DNA of 64,000 nucleotides from Shewanella loihica PV-4 (GTDB lineage Bacteria > Pseudomonadota > Gammaproteobacteria > Enterobacterales > Shewanellaceae): the NCBI RefSeq assembly GCF_000016065.1, contig NC_009092.1:1674001-1738000 (forward strand), read 5' to 3'. Positions 13,890 to 24,616 of this stretch are shown one piece after another. The notes beneath the pieces are model-generated. The model was given only the letters and a program-made list of their open reading frames with translations, was not told where the DNA came from and did not search any database. Position 1 is the stretch's first letter, and every line of letters begins with the position of its first letter. The position numbers were made by a program, and so were the translations under genes.

Positions 13890-15467
13890 ATGAAAACACT
13901 GCTCATTCACTCGACAAAACATCTTTCCATCGCCGTCACCTATGCCTGTCTCGGCATTGTCGCGGCCGCGCTCGCCTTTGGGGTCTGGTTTTTGAATGCC
14001 CGTCCCGACCTGTCCATCTGGCATTCGACCATGCTCGAGCATCAGTTTCGCCTCGATAGCGAGGTAGACGATTTCCCTGCCTATCAGGCGCTGGAGGCCA
14101 AGCTGTTCGAGGAAGTAGAGAGTAAGATCTACCGCCGCACCCAACACTTGGATCAGCCCCTCAATCGCTATTGGCATGGCAGCTTTGCCGATCCAGACAA
14201 CTGGCCTAAGGCCTGGAATCGCAGCTATGAGTGGGCCAAGCCAGACGCCGAGTTTGGCATCTTGTTGCTGCACGGCATGTCAGACTCACCCTATGCCTTG
14301 TCGCACTTTGCCGAGCATTTTAAGGGGCGTGCCCACCTGCTGGGGCTAAGATTGCCGGGCCACGGCACCATACCCTCTGGCTTGGTGGAGCTTAAATGGC
14401 AGGAGATGGCCAGGGCGGTGGAGCTGGCGACCAAGCATCTTAAGCAGCAGATGGGCGATAAGCCGCTCTATGTGGTGGCCTTCTCTACCGGCGCGGCGCT
14501 GGCGTTAAACCATGAGCTCGAGCGGCTCGCGCATAATTCGACGCTGAGTTACCGCGGCATGATCTTCCTCTCGCCGGCCATAGGTCTGTCGCCGGTGGCG
14601 GCCGGTGCCAAGTGGCAGGACAGGTTAGGGCGGCTTTTGGGGCTAGAGAAGCTGAGCTGGAACTCGATTCAGACCGAGTACGATCCCTTTAAATACAACT
14701 CCTTCGCCGTCAATGCCGGCGATGTGGTCTATCAGCTGGCAGAGCGCAATCAACAGCTGATGCAGGCGATGCCCCAGGAGCAATTGGCCGAGCTGGCCGA
14801 CATCTTAACCTTTCAGTCGGTGGCCGACGCTACTGTCTCGACCCCGGCAGTGGTGAGCAATCTCTATGGGCGTCTGCCTTCGAAACAGCATCAGCTGGTG
14901 CTGTTTGATATCAACCGCCAACCCCTGAGTCTGGCCCTAGTGGTGAGCGATCCGCTGACTGCCTTGTTGCCTTCACTCAGTCTCGATGCCCCAAGATTCG
15001 ATCTAACTCTGGTGCAGAATCGTCAAGCTGTTCCGGAGCGGAATCAGGAGAGAGAGCAGGAGTTGGTTGCGCAAACTGTGCTTTCTCAAAGCGATCCGTC
15101 ACAACATAAGCCGTCACAGAACGAGCCGCTAAAGAGCCTCGACGAGGTCGAGGCCAACAGATATCGACCTGGGAAAGTGGTTGTTCATCAGCCCTTAGGG
15201 CTCAATTGGCCGGCGGGCATCTACTCGCTCTCCCATGTGGCCCTGCCTTATCCCGCGAGCGATAACCTGTATGGCACGGCGTTCGTCAAGGGGAGTCACA
15301 GGGTGCAGATTGGTGCGGCGGCTACCCGCGGGGAGCGCGGCGTGCTGGGCGTGTCGGCAGCGGAGGTGCTCAGGCAGAAATGGAATCCTTTCTTCCCTTA
15401 TCTGTTAGAGCGGGTGGATAGCTTTATCCAGGCGCGCCAAGGGACTAATTCTACGCCTGCAAACTAG
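13890..15467 (+). CDS. Membrane-anchored alpha/beta hydrolase (carboxylesterase/lipase-like)
   Basis: A 525-residue protein with one N-terminal membrane anchor (about residues 12-36) and an alpha/beta hydrolase domain. The oxyanion region is ILLLHGMSDSPYAL, then LRLPGHGTIPSG and the nucleophile elbow VVAFSTGAAL with candidate Ser199. The elbow is A-x-S-x-G, not the usual G-x-S-x-G. A hydrophilic Glu/Gln-rich insert (about residues 375-415) separates the core from a C-terminal part holding a possible late His (SHVALPYP). The hydrolase domain probably faces the periplasm. Substrate unknown. It converges with the GGDEF gene. Confidence 0.85.
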   Translation: MKTLLIHSTKHLSIAVTYACLGIVAAALAFGVWFLNARPDLSIWHSTMLEHQFRLDSEVDDFPAYQALEAKLFEEVESKIYRRTQHLDQPLNRYWHGSFADPDNWPKAWNRSYEWAKPDAEFGILLLHGMSDSPYALSHFAEHFKGRAHLLGLRLPGHGTIPSGLVELKWQEMARAVELATKHLKQQMGDKPLYVVAFSTGAALALNHELERLAHNSTLSYRGMIFLSPAIGLSPVAAGAKWQDRLGRLLGLEKLSWNSIQTEYDPFKYNSFAVNAGDVVYQLAERNQQLMQAMPQEQLAELADILTFQSVADATVSTPAVVSNLYGRLPSKQHQLVLFDINRQPLSLALVVSDPLTALLPSLSLDAPRFDLTLVQNRQAVPERNQEREQELVAQTVLSQSDPSQHKPSQNEPLKSLDEVEANRYRPGKVVVHQPLGLNWPAGIYSLSHVALPYPASDNLYGTAFVKGSHRVQIGAAATRGERGVLGVSAAEVLRQKWNPFFPYLLERVDSFIQARQGTNSTPAN

Positions 15468-15497
15468 TCTGTCGCCAACGCGGCAAGGCTTGAGTCT

Positions 15498-15537
15498 TTA
15501 ACAGAAGGCCAGGCTCGTTAACAGAAGGCTTGGCTCG
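15498..15537 (+). repeat. 20-bp tandem duplication
   Basis: Two adjacent 20-base copies beginning ttaacagaaggc, at 15498-15517 and 15518-15537, differing at two bases. They lie in the convergent spacer between the hydrolase and the diguanylate cyclase, where no strong terminator is visible. Confidence 0.75.
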
Positions 15538-15625
15538 GTAAAAGAGACCAAGTTATATGAGCCTAAGTTAAAAAGCCTAGGGGCTAAAAGCGCGTGAGCT
15601 AAAACTGCATAAGTGAAAGCCGTCG

Positions 15626-17794
15626 TTAGCTTAGCTGATCTTCGGCTGACAGCAGGGAGCAGATCACTCGGTTGCGGCCATTTTCCTTGGCCTCGTAGAG
15701 GTTAAGGTCGGCCATCTTAAACCAGTGATCTATGTCGTTCATGTAGCCGGCATTGCTGATCACCGCGCCGATACTCACGGTCAGGCTGATTGCTGCCTGG
15801 CCCGGCACCTCTATCTGATGCTCGGCGACCAGCTCCTTAAACTGATTCAGGTGTTGCTCTACCTGCAGGGCGTTGCACTGGGGCAGCACCACCAAAAACT
15901 CTTCACCGCCATAGCGAGAGACAATATCCGTGTCCCGCTTAAAGAACTGCTTCATCAGTTCTGCCAGGGCGATCAGGGCGCTATCGCCTATCTGGTGGCC
16001 ATAGGTGTCGTTGATCTTCTTAAAGTGATCGATATCTATGATGCAGAACGCCAGCGCCGCATAGCTGCGCTTGCACATATCGTGAATATTGCCGAAATGA
16101 TTTTCCACGTAGCGGCGGTTGTAGAGCTGAGTCAGCTCATCGCGCTCCGCCAGCGCCTGCAGCTTGAGGTTGGCATCTTCCAGCTCAACCGTGCGCATTG
16201 CCACCTTTTCCTCCAGCTCCAGCTGGTAGCTGATCAGCTCCTGTTTACTCTTCTGAATGCTGCTGGAGAGGGCGTAGATCTCCTGGGGCGTGGTGTCTGC
16301 CATCGCCTCATCCTGATGTTCGGCCATGCCCCATTGGCTAAATTTCTTGGCGATGGTCTCAAGCGGCTGAGTCAGGCGATTACTGATCACCTTGATCAGC
16401 AAGATGGTGATGATGAAGGCAATAAACAGCAGGCTGAAGGTGGTCAGGTACTGCTGCTCCACCTGCTTCACCAGCGGCGAGAAGGGCATCACCACATAGA
16501 GTGACCAGCCATTTTTCAGCACATATTTGGCGTAGGCGAACTCAGGGTTAAAGCTGTCGAGATTGCGAAAGTTGATCATGTTCAGGCTGGTGCGATAGCG
16601 CTGCCCCGAGGTGGAGACCTTAAGCGGGGTCAATGGTGCCAGGTCGAGCATCTCAGAGGCGTAGATCACCAGGCCGTTCTCGTCGGTAAGCACCATGGCC
16701 TGCTCGTGAAACTCGCGGTTGCGCTCATCGATACTGGCGAACTTGGTAAGGTTTAACGAGCCTTCGATGATCCCTATGGGACTGACCGGGTTGTCCTTGG
16801 AATAGAGCGGCGCGCTGATGGCGACTATGGGATCTGTACCAAACCCCCGCCCGAGGAAGGCCGGGGAGATAAAGGTCAGCTGATTGTAGAAGGCCTCCTG
16901 AAAATAGTGCCTGTCGCTGATGCTGAGATCTTTGTTTTGAACTGTCTCCTTGCCCAGGCGTGAGATGGGGCTGGCCGCCGAGATAAGCCCCTTGTCATCG
17001 GCTATCAGCATAGAGATAAAAAACGGGTAGCTCTGGTGCAATTTAGATAACAGGCTCTGCCACTGGGCCGCATCATAGTTAGAAAGGCTCAGCCAGCGCG
17101 CCGCGTTGTCTATGGCGCTGATATGTCCCTCGATAAAGCTCTCGGTGGCCTTGCCTAGGTGGGCCGCCGAGTCTTCCAGGTTGAGCTTCACATCCCGCTG
17201 CTGTTGGTCGATGGAGTTGTTGTTGAAGATCAGCGCCGATACCAGCAGGGCCAGGGTCAACACCTGGGTAAAGGTGTAGGTGAGCTGGGCGTTGAAGCTC
17301 TTGCGCTTCTTATTCATCAGCTTGCCGTCGATATGCAGCTGGCTTGGCAGCATGGTGACACAGATGGCGCCGAGCGCCGTATAGAGCATGCCGTTAATCC
17401 CCTGCTTGAGGGTGATAAAGGTCATGTAGCTGTTGGGCATCTGAAACACCAGGTTGGCGTACAGATAGAAGAGCGGCATGCCCAGCAAGAGCCAGAAGGT
17501 GATATCCGCATACAGGGTGTAGAATTCTTTGCGCCGCGCATAGCCCAGCCACAGCGCCTCTAACGGGAACAGCAGGAACATGTGCCAGCTGTCCCAGGCG
17601 ATATAGAGGCCGGTGGCACAAAGCAGCGAGGTTAACAGGGCATACCAAGGGCCGAGGAAGATGGCCACGATCACGAAGAAGAGGTTACCAATGATCAGCT
17701 GTTGGTTTCCAAACAGGGGAATAGGTGCCAGGTTGACCAGCAAGCCCAGTAGACCCAGTAGCAAGGCAAACCCTAGGTGATTCTTATTGATCAA
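15626..17794 (-). CDS. Membrane diguanylate cyclase with Cache sensor
   Basis: A 722-residue enzyme making cyclic di-GMP. Order: about five N-terminal membrane helices (a MASE-like module, residues 1-150), one more helix near 170-195, a periplasmic double-Cache-like domain (about 200-440, with ISDRHYFQEAF), a membrane helix, a HAMP-like linker, a short coiled coil and a GGDEF domain. The active site is GGEEF at 629-633 and the inhibitory site RDTD at 620-623, five residues before it, so it should be active and product-inhibited. There is no EAL domain. The ligand is unknown; Cache domains often bind small metabolites. Confidence 0.93.
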   Translation of the reverse strand: MINKNHLGFALLLGLLGLLVNLAPIPLFGNQQLIIGNLFFVIVAIFLGPWYALLTSLLCATGLYIAWDSWHMFLLFPLEALWLGYARRKEFYTLYADITFWLLLGMPLFYLYANLVFQMPNSYMTFITLKQGINGMLYTALGAICVTMLPSQLHIDGKLMNKKRKSFNAQLTYTFTQVLTLALLVSALIFNNNSIDQQQRDVKLNLEDSAAHLGKATESFIEGHISAIDNAARWLSLSNYDAAQWQSLLSKLHQSYPFFISMLIADDKGLISAASPISRLGKETVQNKDLSISDRHYFQEAFYNQLTFISPAFLGRGFGTDPIVAISAPLYSKDNPVSPIGIIEGSLNLTKFASIDERNREFHEQAMVLTDENGLVIYASEMLDLAPLTPLKVSTSGQRYRTSLNMINFRNLDSFNPEFAYAKYVLKNGWSLYVVMPFSPLVKQVEQQYLTTFSLLFIAFIITILLIKVISNRLTQPLETIAKKFSQWGMAEHQDEAMADTTPQEIYALSSSIQKSKQELISYQLELEEKVAMRTVELEDANLKLQALAERDELTQLYNRRYVENHFGNIHDMCKRSYAALAFCIIDIDHFKKINDTYGHQIGDSALIALAELMKQFFKRDTDIVSRYGGEEFLVVLPQCNALQVEQHLNQFKELVAEHQIEVPGQAAISLTVSIGAVISNAGYMNDIDHWFKMADLNLYEAKENGRNRVICSLLSAEDQLS

Positions 17795-18146
17795 TTACTT
17801 TCTTCCCTAATCTTTCATTGACGACGCAGTTGATGCAGAAAATGCTGGCAGAACTGCGACAGCGGATGCTCTTTGCCGGCGCCCTTAATAGGCATTCATC
17901 GGCCGCACTCTGAGCCTTTTGCTAGGCCTGTATCGATAATGACACGCTTAAATAGGAGTGTAAGGGAATCCCAAGTTAAATGCTAACCAAATGTTTCTTA
18001 TCACTCTTTTGTGGTTTTTAGAGGACTTGTTTTTCAGTGAGAACATTGACTAAGAGTTTGGTTAAGAATGAGGATGTTTGATGGGGATAGTAATTTGCTG
18101 TATTTGTGGCGAGAAAGCAGAGGAGATCTTTTGAATTACTGTATAC
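17795..18146. other. Gene-free stretch upstream of the AT-rich block
   Basis: About 350 bp between the divergently oriented cyclase gene and the terminator at 18147. No convincing ORF is present (a 48-codon frame from 18070 runs through the terminator). An 8-bp inverted repeat (TAACCAAA at 17984-17991, TTTGGTTA at 18057-18064) is visible. Composition shifts from the GC-rich core to AT-rich near 17940, marking the left edge of the foreign-looking block. An unannotated small RNA ending at the terminator is possible. Confidence 0.5.
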
Positions 18147-18176
18147 AAAAAGGACTACCAACAGGTAGTCCTTTTT
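18147..18176 (+). terminator. Orphan bidirectional-looking terminator
   Basis: An A-run, the stem GGACTACC/GGTAGTCC with loop AACA, then TTTTT. No + strand gene lies upstream of it and no - strand gene reads into it, so it belongs to an unseen transcript or is a boundary relic. Confidence 0.85.
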
Positions 18177-18231
18177 ATTTGGCTATATTGGCGATAAACT
18201 CAATAGGTTAGTTCGACATAGGATGTTAAGA

Positions 18232-18660
18232 ATGCATAAATGGATGTTTATCACATTGATTATGGCTAGCTTCAACCTTCATGCTGCAGTTTATAAATGC
18301 ACCATAGACGGGGTTGAAACTTACAGCCAAGATCCTTGCGCAGAAGATGCCCAAGAGATCACAGTAACTCCTCCCGTGAAAATGAATAGTAGTGACAATG
18401 ATTTGAGCGTCGATCAATTGGTCGAGCAATGCATTACGACGTTAACATTAATTGGGGGATTTAAAGATCCAGAGTCAATTAAGGTACTTGGTCACCATTT
18501 TGATTGGGTGCAGGATGACACTGGGGCACGTCGCGTACTCCAACTAAGAATCAATGCAAAGAATAGCTATGGTGGTTACGGCGGGGCTGAATTTTACCCC
18601 TGTTTCTTGAACCATAGCGGAACTCAACTTAGTGAGCATCAGTACAGAATACGGAAGTAA
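18232..18660 (+). CDS. Secreted DUF4124-like protein
   Basis: 142 residues from the ATG at 18232, chosen because AGGA lies eight bases upstream; an ATG at 18223 is also in frame. The signal peptide is MHKWMFITLIMASFNLHA, with cleavage expected before AVYKC. The mature start (VYKCTIDGVETYSQDPCAE) fits the short DUF4124 motif, in which two cysteines likely form a disulfide. The rest is not recognisable; a glycine/tyrosine patch (YGGYGGAEFYPCF) lies near the end. AT-rich. It is followed four bases later by the next gene, suggesting cotranscription. Confidence 0.75.
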   Translation: MHKWMFITLIMASFNLHAAVYKCTIDGVETYSQDPCAEDAQEITVTPPVKMNSSDNDLSVDQLVEQCITTLTLIGGFKDPESIKVLGHHFDWVQDDTGARRVLQLRINAKNSYGGYGGAEFYPCFLNHSGTQLSEHQYRIRK

Positions 18661-18663
18661 AGC

Positions 18664-19248
18664 GTGTCTAAATCAAAGAAAAGATATTTAAACCTCTGGC
18701 GAGAAATATTAGCAATTATAGTTGTTTTGGCTTCCATGTATTATGGCTACTGGCTACTTTCAGTGAGTCTAATAACCAGTTCTGATTTTTTAACGTGGAA
18801 CATTATCACATGGTTGTTAGCAATCGCTTTCATAGCACTGCCACGGATAAGCGAGATCTCTATTGGGGGGAATGTTATTAAGCTTATCCAAGCAACTAAG
18901 CAAGCCCAATCTACTCTTAAAGGGTTGTTTAGGGCACAGCTTGTTATGCTTAGACAAACTCCTAGTGGATTTAGAAGCTCACTTGTCACAGTTGATCCTC
19001 GGGTAGAGCCATTCTTCGATTTGTGTGAAGAGATAGCCAAACTTGAGCTAGCCGATGAGCTGAGCGCTGATATGGTTCAAACTGCACAAGAATTGATACA
19101 AACTCATGTAACTAATTTTATGGATATGCTTTTTATGCATGAACCACCTAAAGATGAGTTTTATAGTGATGATGAGCTAATTCAACATCGTGTAATGCCA
19201 GATGCAAAAGATGTTTATGTAAGACTGCGGGATTTCATCTGCCGTTAA
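18664..19248 (+). CDS. Two-helix membrane protein of unknown function
   Basis: 194 residues from a GTG start four bases after the preceding stop. Two hydrophobic segments (about residues 14-34 and 41-59) are followed by a mainly helical soluble domain of about 130 residues rich in acidic residues, probably cytoplasmic because the short N-terminus is strongly basic (SKSKKRY). I recognise no family. AT-rich like its neighbours. Position suggests it is cotranscribed with the DUF4124-like gene and possibly with the reverse transcriptase 68 bp downstream; a membrane partner of the RT is conceivable but unsupported by motifs. Confidence 0.7.
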   Translation: MSKSKKRYLNLWREILAIIVVLASMYYGYWLLSVSLITSSDFLTWNIITWLLAIAFIALPRISEISIGGNVIKLIQATKQAQSTLKGLFRAQLVMLRQTPSGFRSSLVTVDPRVEPFFDLCEEIAKLELADELSADMVQTAQELIQTHVTNFMDMLFMHEPPKDEFYSDDELIQHRVMPDAKDVYVRLRDFICR

Positions 19249-19316
19249 CTCTTAAGGTTTTTTAATATAGCTCGTATGGTGATGCTAGGTGTTTGTGAAC
19301 TATGGGGGGCTAGTAT

Positions 19317-20948
19317 ATGAAGGTTAAAGATTTACTCAATATTACGGATGAGGATGAACTAAAAAAATATCGTGTTTTTAGAGCATTATCTCGCTTTAAC
19401 TATTTTCCAAATCAAAAACAGGCTATAGGCGAGTTACCTGATTGCTTTACAACTTCATCTTTAACACCTGAAGTATGTTTAAGACTATTATCAGGTGGGA
19501 TTGACAACAAAAGAAAAAACACAGGATTTGCTCCTGTTGAGTACAAGTCAACGCGTTATAACAATATACCTAGAGTTCTTTCTCTTGTTCATCCTGTTGC
19601 CCATGCGCAGCTTTGCAAACATATTTACGAAAACTGGCAAGATATTGAGTATATTTCTGCTAATACTATTAGCAGAGTTAGACCTGAATTCTATGAAGTA
19701 GATAAGCGAATTGTTGTCATGAATTATGATGATCCGATTGTTAAAGATAGGAAGTTTAATGACATAACATTTGGAAAGAAATACATTGTAAATGCAGATA
19801 TCGCGAGTTGTTTCGATAGTATTTACTCTCATAGTATACCTTGGGCAATTAAAGGATATGAGTTTGCAAAAAACAATAGAGGTGAAAATGAATGGTTTAA
19901 CCAGTTTGACAAATTTTTAAGAACAACTAAAAGATGTGAAACCAATGGGATGCCGATAGGTCCCGCTACTTCCTCAATATGTTTAGAAATTATACTTGCG
20001 AGAGTTGATAGTAGGTTACATGACCTTGGTTTTGAACATGAACGATATGTAGATGATTTTTGTTGTTACTGTTCAACCAAAGAGCAGGCTGATGAATTTA
20101 TTATAAAATTGTCGGAGTTGTTAGCTGAGTATCGATTGAGTTTGAACTTGAGAAAGACAACTATTATTGAGTTGCCAATAGCATCAACTGATGATTGGAT
20201 TGTAGAATTGAATAGCTTGTGTATTGACCGATATAATGCAGATGGAGACCTAGTTCTGATAGGTGCTAAAGAAGCTATAAATATTATCAATAAGGCAGTT
20301 TTTTTAAGCCAATCACATAAAGATGGTAGTGTGATTAAGTTTGCAGTAGGTTTTTTAGTAAAAAAATTAGCTGACACTGCATACCAAGATGTGTTCGAGT
20401 GTTTATTAAGTTTGTCATTTCATTATCCAATTCTTATTCCATATTTATCTATTTTGCTGGGCAGAGGAAACTTAGAGGCTCAGCATTACGTTGATAAGTT
20501 TCAGATGATCATTGAAGAAAATGCGCTCCATAAAAGATCAGATGGGATGGCGTGGCCACTTCATATCTTTAGAGAGCATAATATTGAGCCAACCCAAGAA
20601 ATAGTTGATAGAGTTTTGGAAACTAAGGACTGTGTTGCTATCACCATTTTGCAAGATATTTGCCCTGATAATGAGAATATAAGGCAATTTGTAGTAGATA
20701 TCTCAAATGATTTGGATATTAAGAAGGATGAATATTGGCTATTACTATATCAATCATATCTTCTTGGACATATAAATAACCCCTATCGCGATAGATGTTT
20801 TATTGTACTAAAAGATTATGGTGTTAATTTTTTTAAAACTGATAGTAGAACCAAGTTTGAGATGAGATGTGATAATGTTGGTGCTGTTTGGGCTTTTAAA
20901 GAATTAGAAGAGATTAAACAGCCTCAAGCAAAGGCAGTAAATATCTAA
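19317..20948 (+). CDS. Reverse transcriptase of the Abi/UG (defence-associated) type
   Basis: A 543-residue RNA-directed DNA polymerase. Motif A is NADIASCFDSIYSHSIPWAI (Asp161), motif B NGMPIGPATSS (210-220) and motif C RYVDDF (Asp246, Asp247), followed by a motif D-like LNLRKTT. The SIYSHSIPWAI wording after the first Asp is what I associate with abortive-infection and 'unknown group' RTs. There is no maturase, endonuclease or CRISPR Cas1 fusion, and no obvious msr/msd. Residues from about 310 to the end are alpha-helical and repeat-like, similar in style to the C-termini of AbiK/DRT proteins. The codon use is strikingly AT-rich. The subclass is not assignable by eye. Confidence 0.85.
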   Translation: MKVKDLLNITDEDELKKYRVFRALSRFNYFPNQKQAIGELPDCFTTSSLTPEVCLRLLSGGIDNKRKNTGFAPVEYKSTRYNNIPRVLSLVHPVAHAQLCKHIYENWQDIEYISANTISRVRPEFYEVDKRIVVMNYDDPIVKDRKFNDITFGKKYIVNADIASCFDSIYSHSIPWAIKGYEFAKNNRGENEWFNQFDKFLRTTKRCETNGMPIGPATSSICLEIILARVDSRLHDLGFEHERYVDDFCCYCSTKEQADEFIIKLSELLAEYRLSLNLRKTTIIELPIASTDDWIVELNSLCIDRYNADGDLVLIGAKEAINIINKAVFLSQSHKDGSVIKFAVGFLVKKLADTAYQDVFECLLSLSFHYPILIPYLSILLGRGNLEAQHYVDKFQMIIEENALHKRSDGMAWPLHIFREHNIEPTQEIVDRVLETKDCVAITILQDICPDNENIRQFVVDISNDLDIKKDEYWLLLYQSYLLGHINNPYRDRCFIVLKDYGVNFFKTDSRTKFEMRCDNVGAVWAFKELEEIKQPQAKAVNI

Positions 20949-20984
20949 CTCCGAAATCTTTCCAATCCGACCCAATCCCATAAG

Positions 20985-21022
20985 CCGAGACAATGACATC
21001 ACGTTCACTGTCTCGGTTTTTT
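20985..21022 (+). terminator. Hairpin/terminator after the reverse transcriptase
   Basis: CCGAGACA at 20985-20992 pairs with TGTCTCGG at 21009-21016, followed by six T residues. It lies 37 bp after the RT stop. Confidence 0.8.
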
Positions 21023-21111
21023 ATGTGTGACAATTATCTTGTGCTTTGATCACTAGGGGCTAGCGCAAAGAGCCTTTAGTTACTTTGATACGCTATCAAA
21101 TCCCAGACAGC
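21023..21111. other. Structured spacer between RT and tRNA-Pro
   Basis: No ORF. Contains a 7-bp hairpin (TTTGATA at 21084-21090, TATCAAA at 21094-21100). With the flanking terminators, three hairpins fall in about 150 bp. Confidence 0.4.
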
Positions 21112-21138
21112 AAAAAGCCAGCTTCTCAGCTGGCTTTT
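21112..21138 (-). terminator. Terminator of the tRNA-Pro transcript
   Basis: On the minus strand, AGCCAGCT/AGCTGGCT stem with a four-base loop followed by a T-run, nine bases after the tRNA 3' end. Confidence 0.85.
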
Positions 21139-21146
21139 CTAGTATT

Positions 21147-21223
21147 TGGTCGGTATGAGAGGATTCGAACCTCCGACCCCTGACACCCCATGACAGTGCG
21201 CTACCGGGCTGCGCTACATACCG
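21147..21223 (-). tRNA. tRNA-Pro (anticodon GGG)
   Basis: A 77-base tRNA on the minus strand. It starts CGGTATGTAGCGCAG, has D-loop CCCGGTAGCGC, anticodon loop ATGGGGT (GGG, decoding CCC/CCU), T-arm GGAGGTTCGAATCCTC, and ends in an encoded ACCA. The acceptor stem pairs fully (CGGTATG/CATACCG). It closely follows E. coli proL, including the U-U position in the anticodon stem. Its 3' end faces the AT-rich RT block, which is where tRNA-targeting islands usually insert, though no integrase or repeated tRNA end is present. Confidence 0.95.
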
Positions 21224-21271
21224 ATTTTATCCAAAGCAGCAAAGACTTGGGGTCTGCTTCGAACAGGCTGA

Positions 21272-21300
21272 ACTTTATCAAGTCGTTTGCCCCTGTGCAA
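21272..21300 (-). promoter_or_regulatory. Promoter of tRNA-Pro
   Basis: On the minus strand, -35 TTGCAC (21295-21300), a 17-bp spacer and -10 TAAAGT (21272-21277), 48 bp before the tRNA 5' end. Confidence 0.6.
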
Positions 21301-21403
21301 GTGTTTCGGCGGTTGGGCCCGATCGACTGGCTAGTTTATAGTCGCTGGCGGCTCAACCTAAGTAGTTGGCGCATAGCGATCTAATGTTCAGTGACTCAAG
21401 TTT

Positions 21404-23191
21404 CTAGTGATTGTAGAAGCGTCGTCCCTCGCGCATCACCTGGATCAGCTCGGGTGCGCTAATCTTCTTGTTGCGCAGACGCTGGCTATAGTCACGGTTA
21501 TAGATACGGTATTTGCCGTGTCTGTCGATCACTGTGATCTCATCTTCCTGATAGATGCCAAACACCAGGTTGTCACCGATGTAGGTCCAGTTCTCGCTTT
21601 GGGGCTGCAGTATGTTGCGCCCGGCGCTGTAGTCGCTCGGCTTGTTGGTGCAGTCGAGTAGCTGAGTCATCAGGGTCGGCACCACGCCGTAGTGGCTGCT
21701 GGGGTAGGTGACCGTCTTGTCATACTCCATGCCGGGCCAGTGGATGATCAAAGGCACATGCACGTTGGCCGGTGACAGGTTGCCGCGCTGGTTGTCGTTG
21801 TCGCCGGTAAACACCTTGCCCGACACGCCGGTGACCATCACGAAGGTGCTGGCCGGTAGGCGCTCGATAAGCTTTTGCAGCTGCTTGTCGATAAAGTTGA
21901 GCGACTGACGGTATTGGTTGAACAGCACCTTCTGCGCCGGCTTGAGCGGCGTGCTCGGCTTCACCGTTTCGATACCCAGGAAACCGATAGGGGTGTCGTA
22001 GCTGTCGGGGCTCTGCAGGTTGAGCAGGGCAAACCAAGGCTTGTCTTGCTGCATACGCCACTCGTTAAAGCTGTCGATGGATTGAATATCGGCATCGGCC
22101 ACGCCGTTGGTGAGTGGCTGAATGTGCGAGGTCATATCCTGATAGATGGCCTGTGGCTCGATATTGCTGGTTTCAGGGGCGAAACGCGCCAGGGTGTAGC
22201 CCTGTTTAGCCAGCTCCTGGGTGAACACAGGCGAGCGATAGCTAAGATCGCTGGCGGCGATATAGCTGCCCTGCAGGCCATAGAGCAGGGAGAACATGCC
22301 GCTGTTGTGCATATTGCCGCCACTCAGGTGCTGCTTAAATTCATGGTTGTGTTTGCCGTATTCGTACAGGAACGGCATGGTCTCTTTGTCCACCAGATCG
22401 GCCCTGAAGCCGTCGATAGCTACCATCAATATGTTGATCTCTGGGTCGGCGCTACACTGCAGCGGCGATATTGGGTAGTTGAGACTCGGTTGCAGCTTGC
22501 TTGGGTCTTGTGCCTTGCTGCTCTTCTCTATGCCGTGGCTCTCCATGAAGGAGCGCGCGGTGGCAGGATAGGAGAGCGGATAGGCGTCATCCAAGCGGGT
22601 GATCTCTGTGATATCGGCGGCGTCGGCCCAGATATGAATCAGGTGGCTGCTGACGAAACAGAGGCCGATAACCAACACCACCTTAGGGCCGTAGTTAGAC
22701 TTGCGGATCTTTTCTATGCGTTTCCACAGGTAGTTGGCGGCGGTCAGCTCCAGGATGATGATCCCCAGCGGCGTGACGATATAAGAGGTGCCTTGCAGCA
22801 GGGCATTGAGATCGGCCCAGGCGATGTCGAACACAAATGGACTAAGGTGCAGACCATAGTCGTCGTAAATCAGGGTGTCATACAACAAGATACACAGGCC
22901 AAGGGTGGCGGCAAAGGCCGCGAGCCCGCGCAATATCTTGGAGTAGGGCAGCAGTAGGGTGATGGGAAACAGCACCACCAGATAGACGATGAAGGCGAGG
23001 AAGCTAAAATGCCCCAGGGTGCTGATGGCCAGGTAGCCCCAGCCAATCCAAGACTCGGGCGCGCCCACGGTTTCAATATAACGGACGCCGACTATCATCG
23101 CCAAGAAGCCGTTGAAGAAGGCAAACCAATGCCCCCAACTGACTAAGCGTGACACACGATCACGGCCCATCTCTTTTTTACGCTCGATCAT
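21404..23191 (-). CDS. yejM: Inner-membrane sulfatase-like protein YejM (PbgA/LapC)
   Basis: 595 residues (E. coli 586). About five membrane helices in the first 190 residues form the DUF3413 module, followed by a periplasmic sulfatase/alkaline-phosphatase-like domain (NILMVAIDGFRADLV, then LSGGNMHNSGMFSLLYGL). In enterobacteria this protein senses lipopolysaccharide and controls LpxC turnover through LapB. Metal-ligand residues typical of true sulfatases are only partly kept, as in the family. The neighbours yejL and yejK are divergent or adjacent as in other gammaproteobacteria, which supports the assignment. Confidence 0.93.
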   Translation of the reverse strand: MIERKKEMGRDRVSRLVSWGHWFAFFNGFLAMIVGVRYIETVGAPESWIGWGYLAISTLGHFSFLAFIVYLVVLFPITLLLPYSKILRGLAAFAATLGLCILLYDTLIYDDYGLHLSPFVFDIAWADLNALLQGTSYIVTPLGIIILELTAANYLWKRIEKIRKSNYGPKVVLVIGLCFVSSHLIHIWADAADITEITRLDDAYPLSYPATARSFMESHGIEKSSKAQDPSKLQPSLNYPISPLQCSADPEINILMVAIDGFRADLVDKETMPFLYEYGKHNHEFKQHLSGGNMHNSGMFSLLYGLQGSYIAASDLSYRSPVFTQELAKQGYTLARFAPETSNIEPQAIYQDMTSHIQPLTNGVADADIQSIDSFNEWRMQQDKPWFALLNLQSPDSYDTPIGFLGIETVKPSTPLKPAQKVLFNQYRQSLNFIDKQLQKLIERLPASTFVMVTGVSGKVFTGDNDNQRGNLSPANVHVPLIIHWPGMEYDKTVTYPSSHYGVVPTLMTQLLDCTNKPSDYSAGRNILQPQSENWTYIGDNLVFGIYQEDEITVIDRHGKYRIYNRDYSQRLRNKKISAPELIQVMREGRRFYNH

Positions 23192-23291
23192 AGGGATCCG
23201 TTATTTGTTGAAATACTTGTCTATCTTAATTTTTTTTAAGGCGGATTGGCCAGTTTTTTGCGAACAAAAACCGCTTTTTTAGCCGTTAGTG

Positions 23292-23507
23292 TTAGCTTTT
23301 TACCGACTGGGTCAGCGCCTTGGCAAACTGCTCGGCCACTTGGGCACGCGCTTCCTCAGGCACCTTGCGTAGCAGCAGATCTGTGACACAGTTGCCCAGC
23401 ACCATGAGGCTGAGGTCGGTCGGCGCCTGGTGCTTGTCGAGTACTGCCAGGATCTCGGCGATAACGGCTTCGACCTGGGCGTTTGAATATTTAGATTGGA
23501 TAGCCAT
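23292..23507 (-). CDS. yejL: YejL family protein (DUF1414)
   Basis: A 71-residue cytoplasmic protein. The sequence from MAIQSKYSNAQVE through LDKHQAPTDLSLMVLGNCVT matches E. coli YejL nearly word for word. The ATG at 23507 is used because homologues begin there; an open frame continues 22 codons upstream with no conservation. Function unknown. It lies just upstream of yejM on the same strand and divergent from yejK with a 77-bp spacer. Confidence 0.92.
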   Translation of the reverse strand: MAIQSKYSNAQVEAVIAEILAVLDKHQAPTDLSLMVLGNCVTDLLLRKVPEEARAQVAEQFAKALTQSVKS

Positions 23508-23584
23508 ATTTAAAAATTTTTTCACTTTAATTTGAAATAGCGGCATATAATAACGGATTTCTACCAACATCACTATCGAGGCTT

Positions 23585-24616
23585 ATGAGTATTAACGTCG
23601 AACAAGCAATTATTCACGCGATATCCCAAGATGGCGAAGGCCAGCTCAGCTGTAGATTGCGTCCACAACCGCTACTAAATAGTCAAGCCGTCGAAGCCAT
23701 GCTCGAAGAGCTGCATCAAACCTACACCAGTAAGTCGGGTAAGGGGTTTGGTCATTTTGGTACCCACGGCGAAGATGGTGAAGCCAACCCACAGTTTAAA
23801 GAGGCCCTGAGCCAGTATCTGGGTGGCGAGCTTGGGTTCGTCGAGTTCTCAGGCATGGCAGGTAAGCTGCTGCAGGAAGAGCTCGCCAAGTATGACTTCA
23901 GCCAGGGCGGCTTCCTGCTGCTGGCCTGTTATACCTATATGACCAGCGACTACCTGTTTGTCTCTCTGCTCAACGCCAAGTCGTCGATGACGGTTCTGGA
24001 TGATATGGAGCTGTCGCAGAACACTCACCTGGATCTCAACAATGTGCAGCTGGCGGCGCGTATCGACTTGACCGAATGGCAGGCCGATCCGGATTCGCTC
24101 AAGTATATCTCCTTCGTGCGCGGCCGTGCCGGACGTAAGGTGGCGGACTTCTTCCTCGACTTCATGGGCTGTGTCGAAGGGGTTAACACCAAGGCGCAGA
24201 ACAAGTCGCTGATGAACGCGGTAGAAGATTTCGTGGCCAGCAGCGAGCTGACCAAGGATGAGCGCCAACAGTGCCGCGAGAAGGTGTTCGAGTATTGCAC
24301 CGAGCGGGTCGATAGCGGCGCCGACATACAGCTTAAAGACTTGGCAGATGAACTGGCCGATGCGGGCATGGACTCCTTCTACGATTTCGCCCAGGGCGGC
24401 GACTATGAGCTGGAAGAGGAGTTTCCCGGCGACAAGCCGACCCTGCGTCAGCTGAAAAAGTTCTCGGGTACCGGCGGTGGCGTGACCATCAGTTTCGACG
24501 GTCAGCATCTGGGCGAGCGGGTGATCTATGATCCCATCTCAGATTCTATTTTGATCAAGGGCGTGCCGGCTAACCTGAAAGATCAGCTGGATCGTCGCCT
24601 CAAGGGCGGTCAATAA
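23585..24616 (+). CDS. yejK: Nucleoid-associated protein YejK/NdpA
   Basis: 343 residues, the usual NdpA length. The opening ([18 protein letters not shown]) and the middle ([20 protein letters not shown]) are characteristic. Homologues are found in isolated nucleoids and bind DNA; the precise role is not settled. The start codon follows a GAGGCTT sequence close to the ATG. It is followed by a strong terminator, so it is a single-gene unit. Confidence 0.95.

Follow-up and report, generated by a model that had tools for sequence, protein, structure and literature searches.

What kind of reverse transcriptase (RT) is encoded at 19317..20948 (+ strand) in the 64,000-nucleotide stretch of Shewanella loihica PV-4 DNA analysed here (NC_009092.1, positions 1,674,001 to 1,738,000; the window, in whose numbering coordinates are given), and how did the gene come to be there? 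A preliminary description, made from the letters alone, had proposed a phage-defence RT of the Abi/UG type and had left its subclass uncertain. The results presented below point to an antiviral RT of the DRT4 (UG15) family that was probably brought in by a Mu-like prophage as part of its cargo, a reading to which we assign a probability of roughly 0.8.

Assignment of the RT to DRT4 was supported by several kinds of sequence comparison. Thus, the open reading frame (ORF), which is complete and intact, begins with ATG and encodes 543 amino acids (aa), matched the NCBIfam Drt4 model NF041749 over positions 3-489 of 489 with a score of 642.2 bits against a cut-off of 450, far beyond chance, and PADLOC scores were 690 bits for Drt4, 288 for Drt6 and 125 for AbiK. 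Scores with the curated models of group II intron RT (57 bits, cut-off 300) and retron St85 RT (34 bits, cut-off 235) were below threshold, in support of the earlier view that the protein is of the Abi/UG type and not a retron, group II or diversity-generating retroelement RT. Placement in a phylogeny, which had been proposed as a check, was performed with a quick tree (midpoint root, long branches), in which the RT fell inside a set of 101 Drt4 rows (Shimodaira-Hasegawa-like approximate likelihood ratio test 99), apart from DRT6, Drt3b and Abi-P2. Solved DRT4 structures (PDB 9vdo, 9vdv, 9l9s, 9ltm and 21ou) matched the RT in sequence over the whole length (E 7e-127, approximately 41% identity), and the predicted structure of the RT agreed with the DRT4 fold in its RT domain as well as in its helical repeat domain at the C-terminus, a comparison of the kind that had been suggested for the C-terminal part. 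The proposal of a defence-type RT therefore stood, as a reading of family membership, while the group that had been left unplaced can now be given as DRT4/UG15.

The RT of the window shares with known DRT4/UG15 proteins the combination of RT and helical domains as well as the catalytic residues, and differs from them in its position on a divergent twig with two near relatives and within a Mu-like cargo cassette; it thus adds a further, divergent branch to an already known family. RT and helical domains are also found together in AbiK and Abi-P2. Membership of DRT6 was not supported by the PADLOC scores (288 versus 690 bits) and by the separate part of the tree occupied by DRT6, and identity with the DRT6 protein of PDB 9wy8 was 22-23%. 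One protein, L100, lay outside the Drt4 set of the tree although PADLOC calls it Drt4 (467 bits). The PADLOC Drt4 models PDLC02177 and PDLC02179 gave their top scores with L101, L102, L105 and L109, from viral contigs, and with L043, proteins that also scored high on Drt6 and were separated in the tree from the Drt4 set, so that the PADLOC name Drt4 seems to include DRT6-like proteins.

Features expected of an active enzyme were examined in a 40-row alignment of the RT with 39 relatives selected from hits. The catalytic triad, consisting of Asp161 of motif A (codon 19797..19799, + strand) and Asp246 and Asp247 of the YVDD motif (20046..20057, + strand), was invariant, and the phrase reported earlier as SIYSHSIPWAI was found as SIYSHSIPWA. 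RVT_1 was the sole Pfam family in the protein (62.8 bits against a cut-off of 29.6, residues 142-284), and maturase, endonuclease and Cas1 domains were not found by Pfam at E values up to 1. An AlphaFold2 model based on the same alignment (mean predicted local distance difference test score 91.4, predicted template modelling score 0.89) placed nearly all of residues 293-534, approximately, in successive helices. The complete RT motifs, the phrase after motif A, the lack of a fused domain and, at the level of the model, the long helical C-terminal half had all been named in the preliminary description and were borne out.

Studied DRT4 enzymes suggest how such a protein may act. As described in the available portions of the cited papers, DRT4 is a single-gene system that synthesizes random single-stranded DNA (ssDNA) without a template, and toxic ssDNA accumulates when the phage DNA-binding protein ORF55 shields its 3' end (PMC13213688); synthesis is primed on tyrosine (PMC13314766), and DRT4 is among the RTs that form hexameric assemblies (PMC13174585). 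Protein-primed untemplated synthesis is likewise described as established for AbiK and Abi-P2, with priming on Y44 and an active site of D163, D247 and D248 in AbiK (available text of PMC9508834). By analogy, the RT of the window would assemble as a hexamer and make random-sequence ssDNA in the absence of a template, with one of its own tyrosines as the primer; a phage factor present during infection would stabilize this product, and the stabilized ssDNA would stop or kill the infected cell, i.e., abortive infection. Candidates for the priming residue include Y137, Y170 and Y478, present in 40 of 40 rows of the alignment, and Y29, present in 36 of 40, and the divergent DRT4 branch may help to find both the priming tyrosine and the trigger.

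The two nearest relatives of the RT were approximately 73% and 70% identical to it and all others were below 50%; the nearest named relative was from Shewanella sp. cp20 (74%). Matches to Drt4 at E 0.001 or better were noted in 42 of 129 genomes of the genus, with scores above the cut-off in three of them, that of the window included, and in 4 of 394 genomes of the order. Drt4 is thus patchy in the genus, only 2 of the 128 other genomes exceeding the cut-off. A decayed or idle RT retained by chance might be argued from this patchiness and from the loss of the surrounding prophage described below, but such a view is very improbable in light of the full-length frame, the invariant catalytic residues and the high-confidence fold. 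Nine phage records matched the RT, none over more than 80% of the query and the best at 45%, while 2 of 209 matching plasmid records covered at least 80% of the query, at 41% and 24% identity. A scan of viral contigs with the 40-row alignment returned 44 relatives; neither the RT alone nor the 194-aa protein encoded upstream (see below) gave a match when used as the query. In six viral contigs (L093-L098) the RT match was at 35-45% identity and none of the compared Mu-like proteins was found; two of these contigs, L093 and L098, carry Drt4 together with ORFs that we take to be an integrase, a primase-like and an AlpA-like gene, and presumably resemble P4-type satellites. A scan of genome contigs added five Pseudomonas loci.

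Whether the RT acts alone was considered from the genes and spacers upstream of it. The RT gene is preceded by a 145-aa DUF4124-like gene (18223..18660, + strand; PF13511 18.6 bits, below the cut-off of 22) and by a 194-aa gene (18664..19248, + strand) that has two hydrophobic stretches by eye, probably encodes a membrane protein and had no Pfam or PADLOC match. All three genes are consecutive and share the same strand within one cassette, and membrane partners are described for another RT system in the available portion of PMC9122126, so a multi-gene system could be envisaged in which the 194-aa protein, perhaps with the DUF4124-like protein, partners the RT, for example as a membrane effector triggered by its DNA. 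However, no relative of the 194-aa gene was detected at 15 other Drt4 loci (six of them viral contigs, whose flanks were shorter, the other nine having flanks of several kb), no Drt4 adjoins its relatives in G126, G025 and G030 (in G126, Drt4 is on a different contig), and the DUF4124-like gene accompanies quite different cargo elsewhere, so that we regard such a partnership as quite improbable. The 194-aa gene as a fixed DRT4 partner was therefore not supported, and, given that it was not detected at those 15 loci and given the three relatives without adjacent Drt4, the gene is better viewed as accessory cargo. Relatives were found in four other genomes among the 129 searched (G126, G025, G030 and G003, the last not detected again at the thresholds used), and a protein search returned three proteins, one about identical to that of the window. 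With respect to RNA, no partner was detected by Rfam scanning, spacer folding or blastn against four Drt4 loci, an absence that is not proof: tRNA was the sole Rfam match in the window, the 68-nt spacer before the RT folded little better than shuffled sequences (z -1.02), and window positions 15000-24000 had no match upstream of the RT in loci L048-L051. Of the two forms proposed in the preliminary description, single-gene or small multi-gene, the former is thus favoured by these comparisons and by the single-gene nature of DRT4 noted above, and the latter is not.

Within an insert of low GC content (0.34-0.42, as opposed to approximately 0.55 outside) at 18017..21096, the RT gene comes last. 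Edges of the insert were indicated by blastn against those genomes that are closest to the window around this site, in which flank homology ends at 18016 and resumes at 21097; identities of the main left and right flank pieces were 92% and 98% for G040, 88% and 93% for G009 and 79% and 83% for G056. A tRNA-Pro (ggg) gene identified by ARAGORN and Rfam adjoins the insert (21147..21223, - strand).

Parts of a Mu-like phage were noted on both sides of the cargo. On the left, a short remnant (18102..18136, + strand) matched the last codons of the Mu-like mor gene (PF08765) of locus L090 and, at a laxer blastn threshold, the mor ends of L151, L152, L153 and L046. This remnant is followed by a strong, terminator-like hairpin and T-run ahead of the cargo genes (18147..18176, + strand; z -4.44 for the fold of 18137-18222). 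On the right, the RT gene is directly followed by a 74-bp terminator (20949..21022, + strand), which divides variable cargo from lysis genes in the Mu-like prophages that related genomes carry; in L088, for example, the ORF immediately after it has a lysozyme gene (PF00959) as its next neighbour. Three related genomes were matched by the sequence behind the RT, and one of them, L090, also matched 18102-18136. This context, with slot-type borders at either end, had no place in the preliminary description. Since the order of mor fragment, DUF4124-like gene, 194-aa gene, DRT4 and terminator copies the layout of the slot between mor and lysis genes of these prophages, the RT probably arrived as Mu-like cargo; to judge from the shared ends, the remaining parts of the prophage would be missing from the site. 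The insert would therefore be a remnant and not a prophage, as the genome of the window has no Mor match and the ORFs of the insert include no lysis gene.

Several points weigh against a Mu-like origin or against the function proposed. Besides the lack of a Mor match in the genome, the mor fragment is only about 35 bp long with no prophage left at the site, and inspection of the junctions by eye revealed no target-site duplication, for which no systematic search was made. In addition, the twig that carries the RT is divergent enough that its trigger or product could differ from those of studied DRT4. The site itself is variable, the flanks enclosing 4664 bp of other sequence in G040, 2176 bp in G009 and 143 bp in G056. 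Together with the lack of Mu-like ends or a target-site duplication evident by eye, this variability would suit an insert that is no prophage remnant but a cassette swapped by recombination beside tRNA-Pro, with which the phage-like ends came along. Such an exchange is rather unlikely in view of the phage parts that flank the cargo to its left and right and of the fragment of a Mu-like protease (PF10123, E 6.9e-22) that G040 has at this site.

The slot to which Mu-like cargo origin appeals was evident in other genomes of the genus. Matches to Mor were noted at 35 places in 28 of 129 genomes, and the 26 best-scoring loci were examined (in L188 the mor ORF escaped automatic recognition). When the same 129 genomes were searched with 82 bp around the terminator, 17 places were found, spread over 16 genomes and including the window. 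Thirteen of the other 16 follow cargo within a mor locus, one (G072, position 4008276) is approximately 3 kb from a partial Mor match, and two belong to genomes in which Mor had no match (G014 and G121). The terminator followed varying cargo in 14 of the 26 mor loci, over only about 40 bp in L151 and L199; L046 had just 18 bp of it and 11 loci had none, five of these (L198 and L200-L203) having no compared lysis or other Mu-like protein after mor. Relatives of the DUF4124-like gene stand behind mor in 6 of 26 loci (L089, L151, L152, L153, L155 and L046), and the G030 relative of the 194-aa gene also sits in a mor slot.

Defence genes occur among the slot cargo, a statement of presence and not of enrichment. 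PADLOC, applied to part of the slot genes, identified Ppl in L189 (765 bits), ShosA and ShosT in L153 (222 and 51 bits) and PDC-S31 and PDC-S45 in L151 (197 and 117 bits). Scanned sets were without a match for 7 of 10 genes (one non-slot), 8 of 10 (four non-slot) and 7 of 10, and two of the three matches in the last set were weak. Other cargo included an Mrr-type nuclease domain (L192), an Ntox15 toxin with immunity-like genes (L193, in G072), a zeta-toxin-like kinase (L046) and recurring DUF4145 genes; many other slot genes had no family, and several of these are candidates for testing. Variable cargo with defence genes at a fixed place in a temperate element is also described for P2-like phages and P4-like satellites in the available portion of PMC9122126, in which the terms 'Mu-like' and 'phage Mu' were not found; the present case differs in concerning a Mu-like prophage and the interval between mor and lysis genes. 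Defence systems in Mu-like phages have been published in general (PMC9519451, available portion), as has a retron-type RT within the structural cluster of a Shewanella Mu-like phage (PMC8541194, available portion). Among the papers listed from an open-licence library, none was found to describe, in its title or abstract opening, a defence slot between mor and lysis genes or the presence of DRT4 there.

Comparable remnants were noted elsewhere. In G014, the terminator stands behind a Ppl protein (771 bits); in G121 it follows a KAP NTPase (PF07693; PDC-S20, 287 bits) and precedes an 81-aa ORF that matches Glyco_hydro_108. At L046 in G030, a short mor ORF is accompanied by the kinase, by DUF4124-like and 194-aa-like genes and by a lysis-side ORF fragment, all between what look like ordinary chromosomal genes, which we take to be mutY and a transporter gene. 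Like the insert of the window, these three have the appearance of slot cargo that remained when its prophage was lost, which suggests that defence cargo can persist after a Mu-like prophage is lost. More broadly, Mu-like prophages of the genus may have a mor-lysis slot that often holds defence genes, and hosts may keep this cargo after prophage decay, such that the DRT4 of the window, the Ppl of G014, the KAP NTPase of G121 and the zeta-toxin-like cassette of G030 would be independent survivals; we hold this view tentatively, at somewhat less than even odds. If it is true, prophage decay would steadily supply chromosomes with isolated defence genes, and this context suggests how such genes come to adjoin ordinary chromosomal ones. 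The mor end and the 74-bp terminator may together serve as a signature for finding cargo both in Mu-like prophages and in orphaned remnants.

Other observations concerned the site and the slot. Membrane proteins of 285 aa (L083:6973-7830) and 281 aa (L084:9899-10744), 56% identical and without an above-threshold family, are encoded at the same chromosomal site in G040 and G009; an abortive-infection (AbiC-like) role is not claimed for them, Pfam matches being sub-threshold and PADLOC giving none for the one submitted. In G072, Ntox15 toxin and Tdi1-type immunity genes precede the same terminator twice (L193 and L223), approximately 19 kb apart. Finally, a pair of genes encoding 417 and 348 aa recurs in L088 (5940-8236, + strand) and as the two genes after mor in L197; without a Pfam match for the three members scanned or a PADLOC match for the L088 pair, and with identities of 48% and 47% between loci, these genes are a candidate for an unknown two-gene system.
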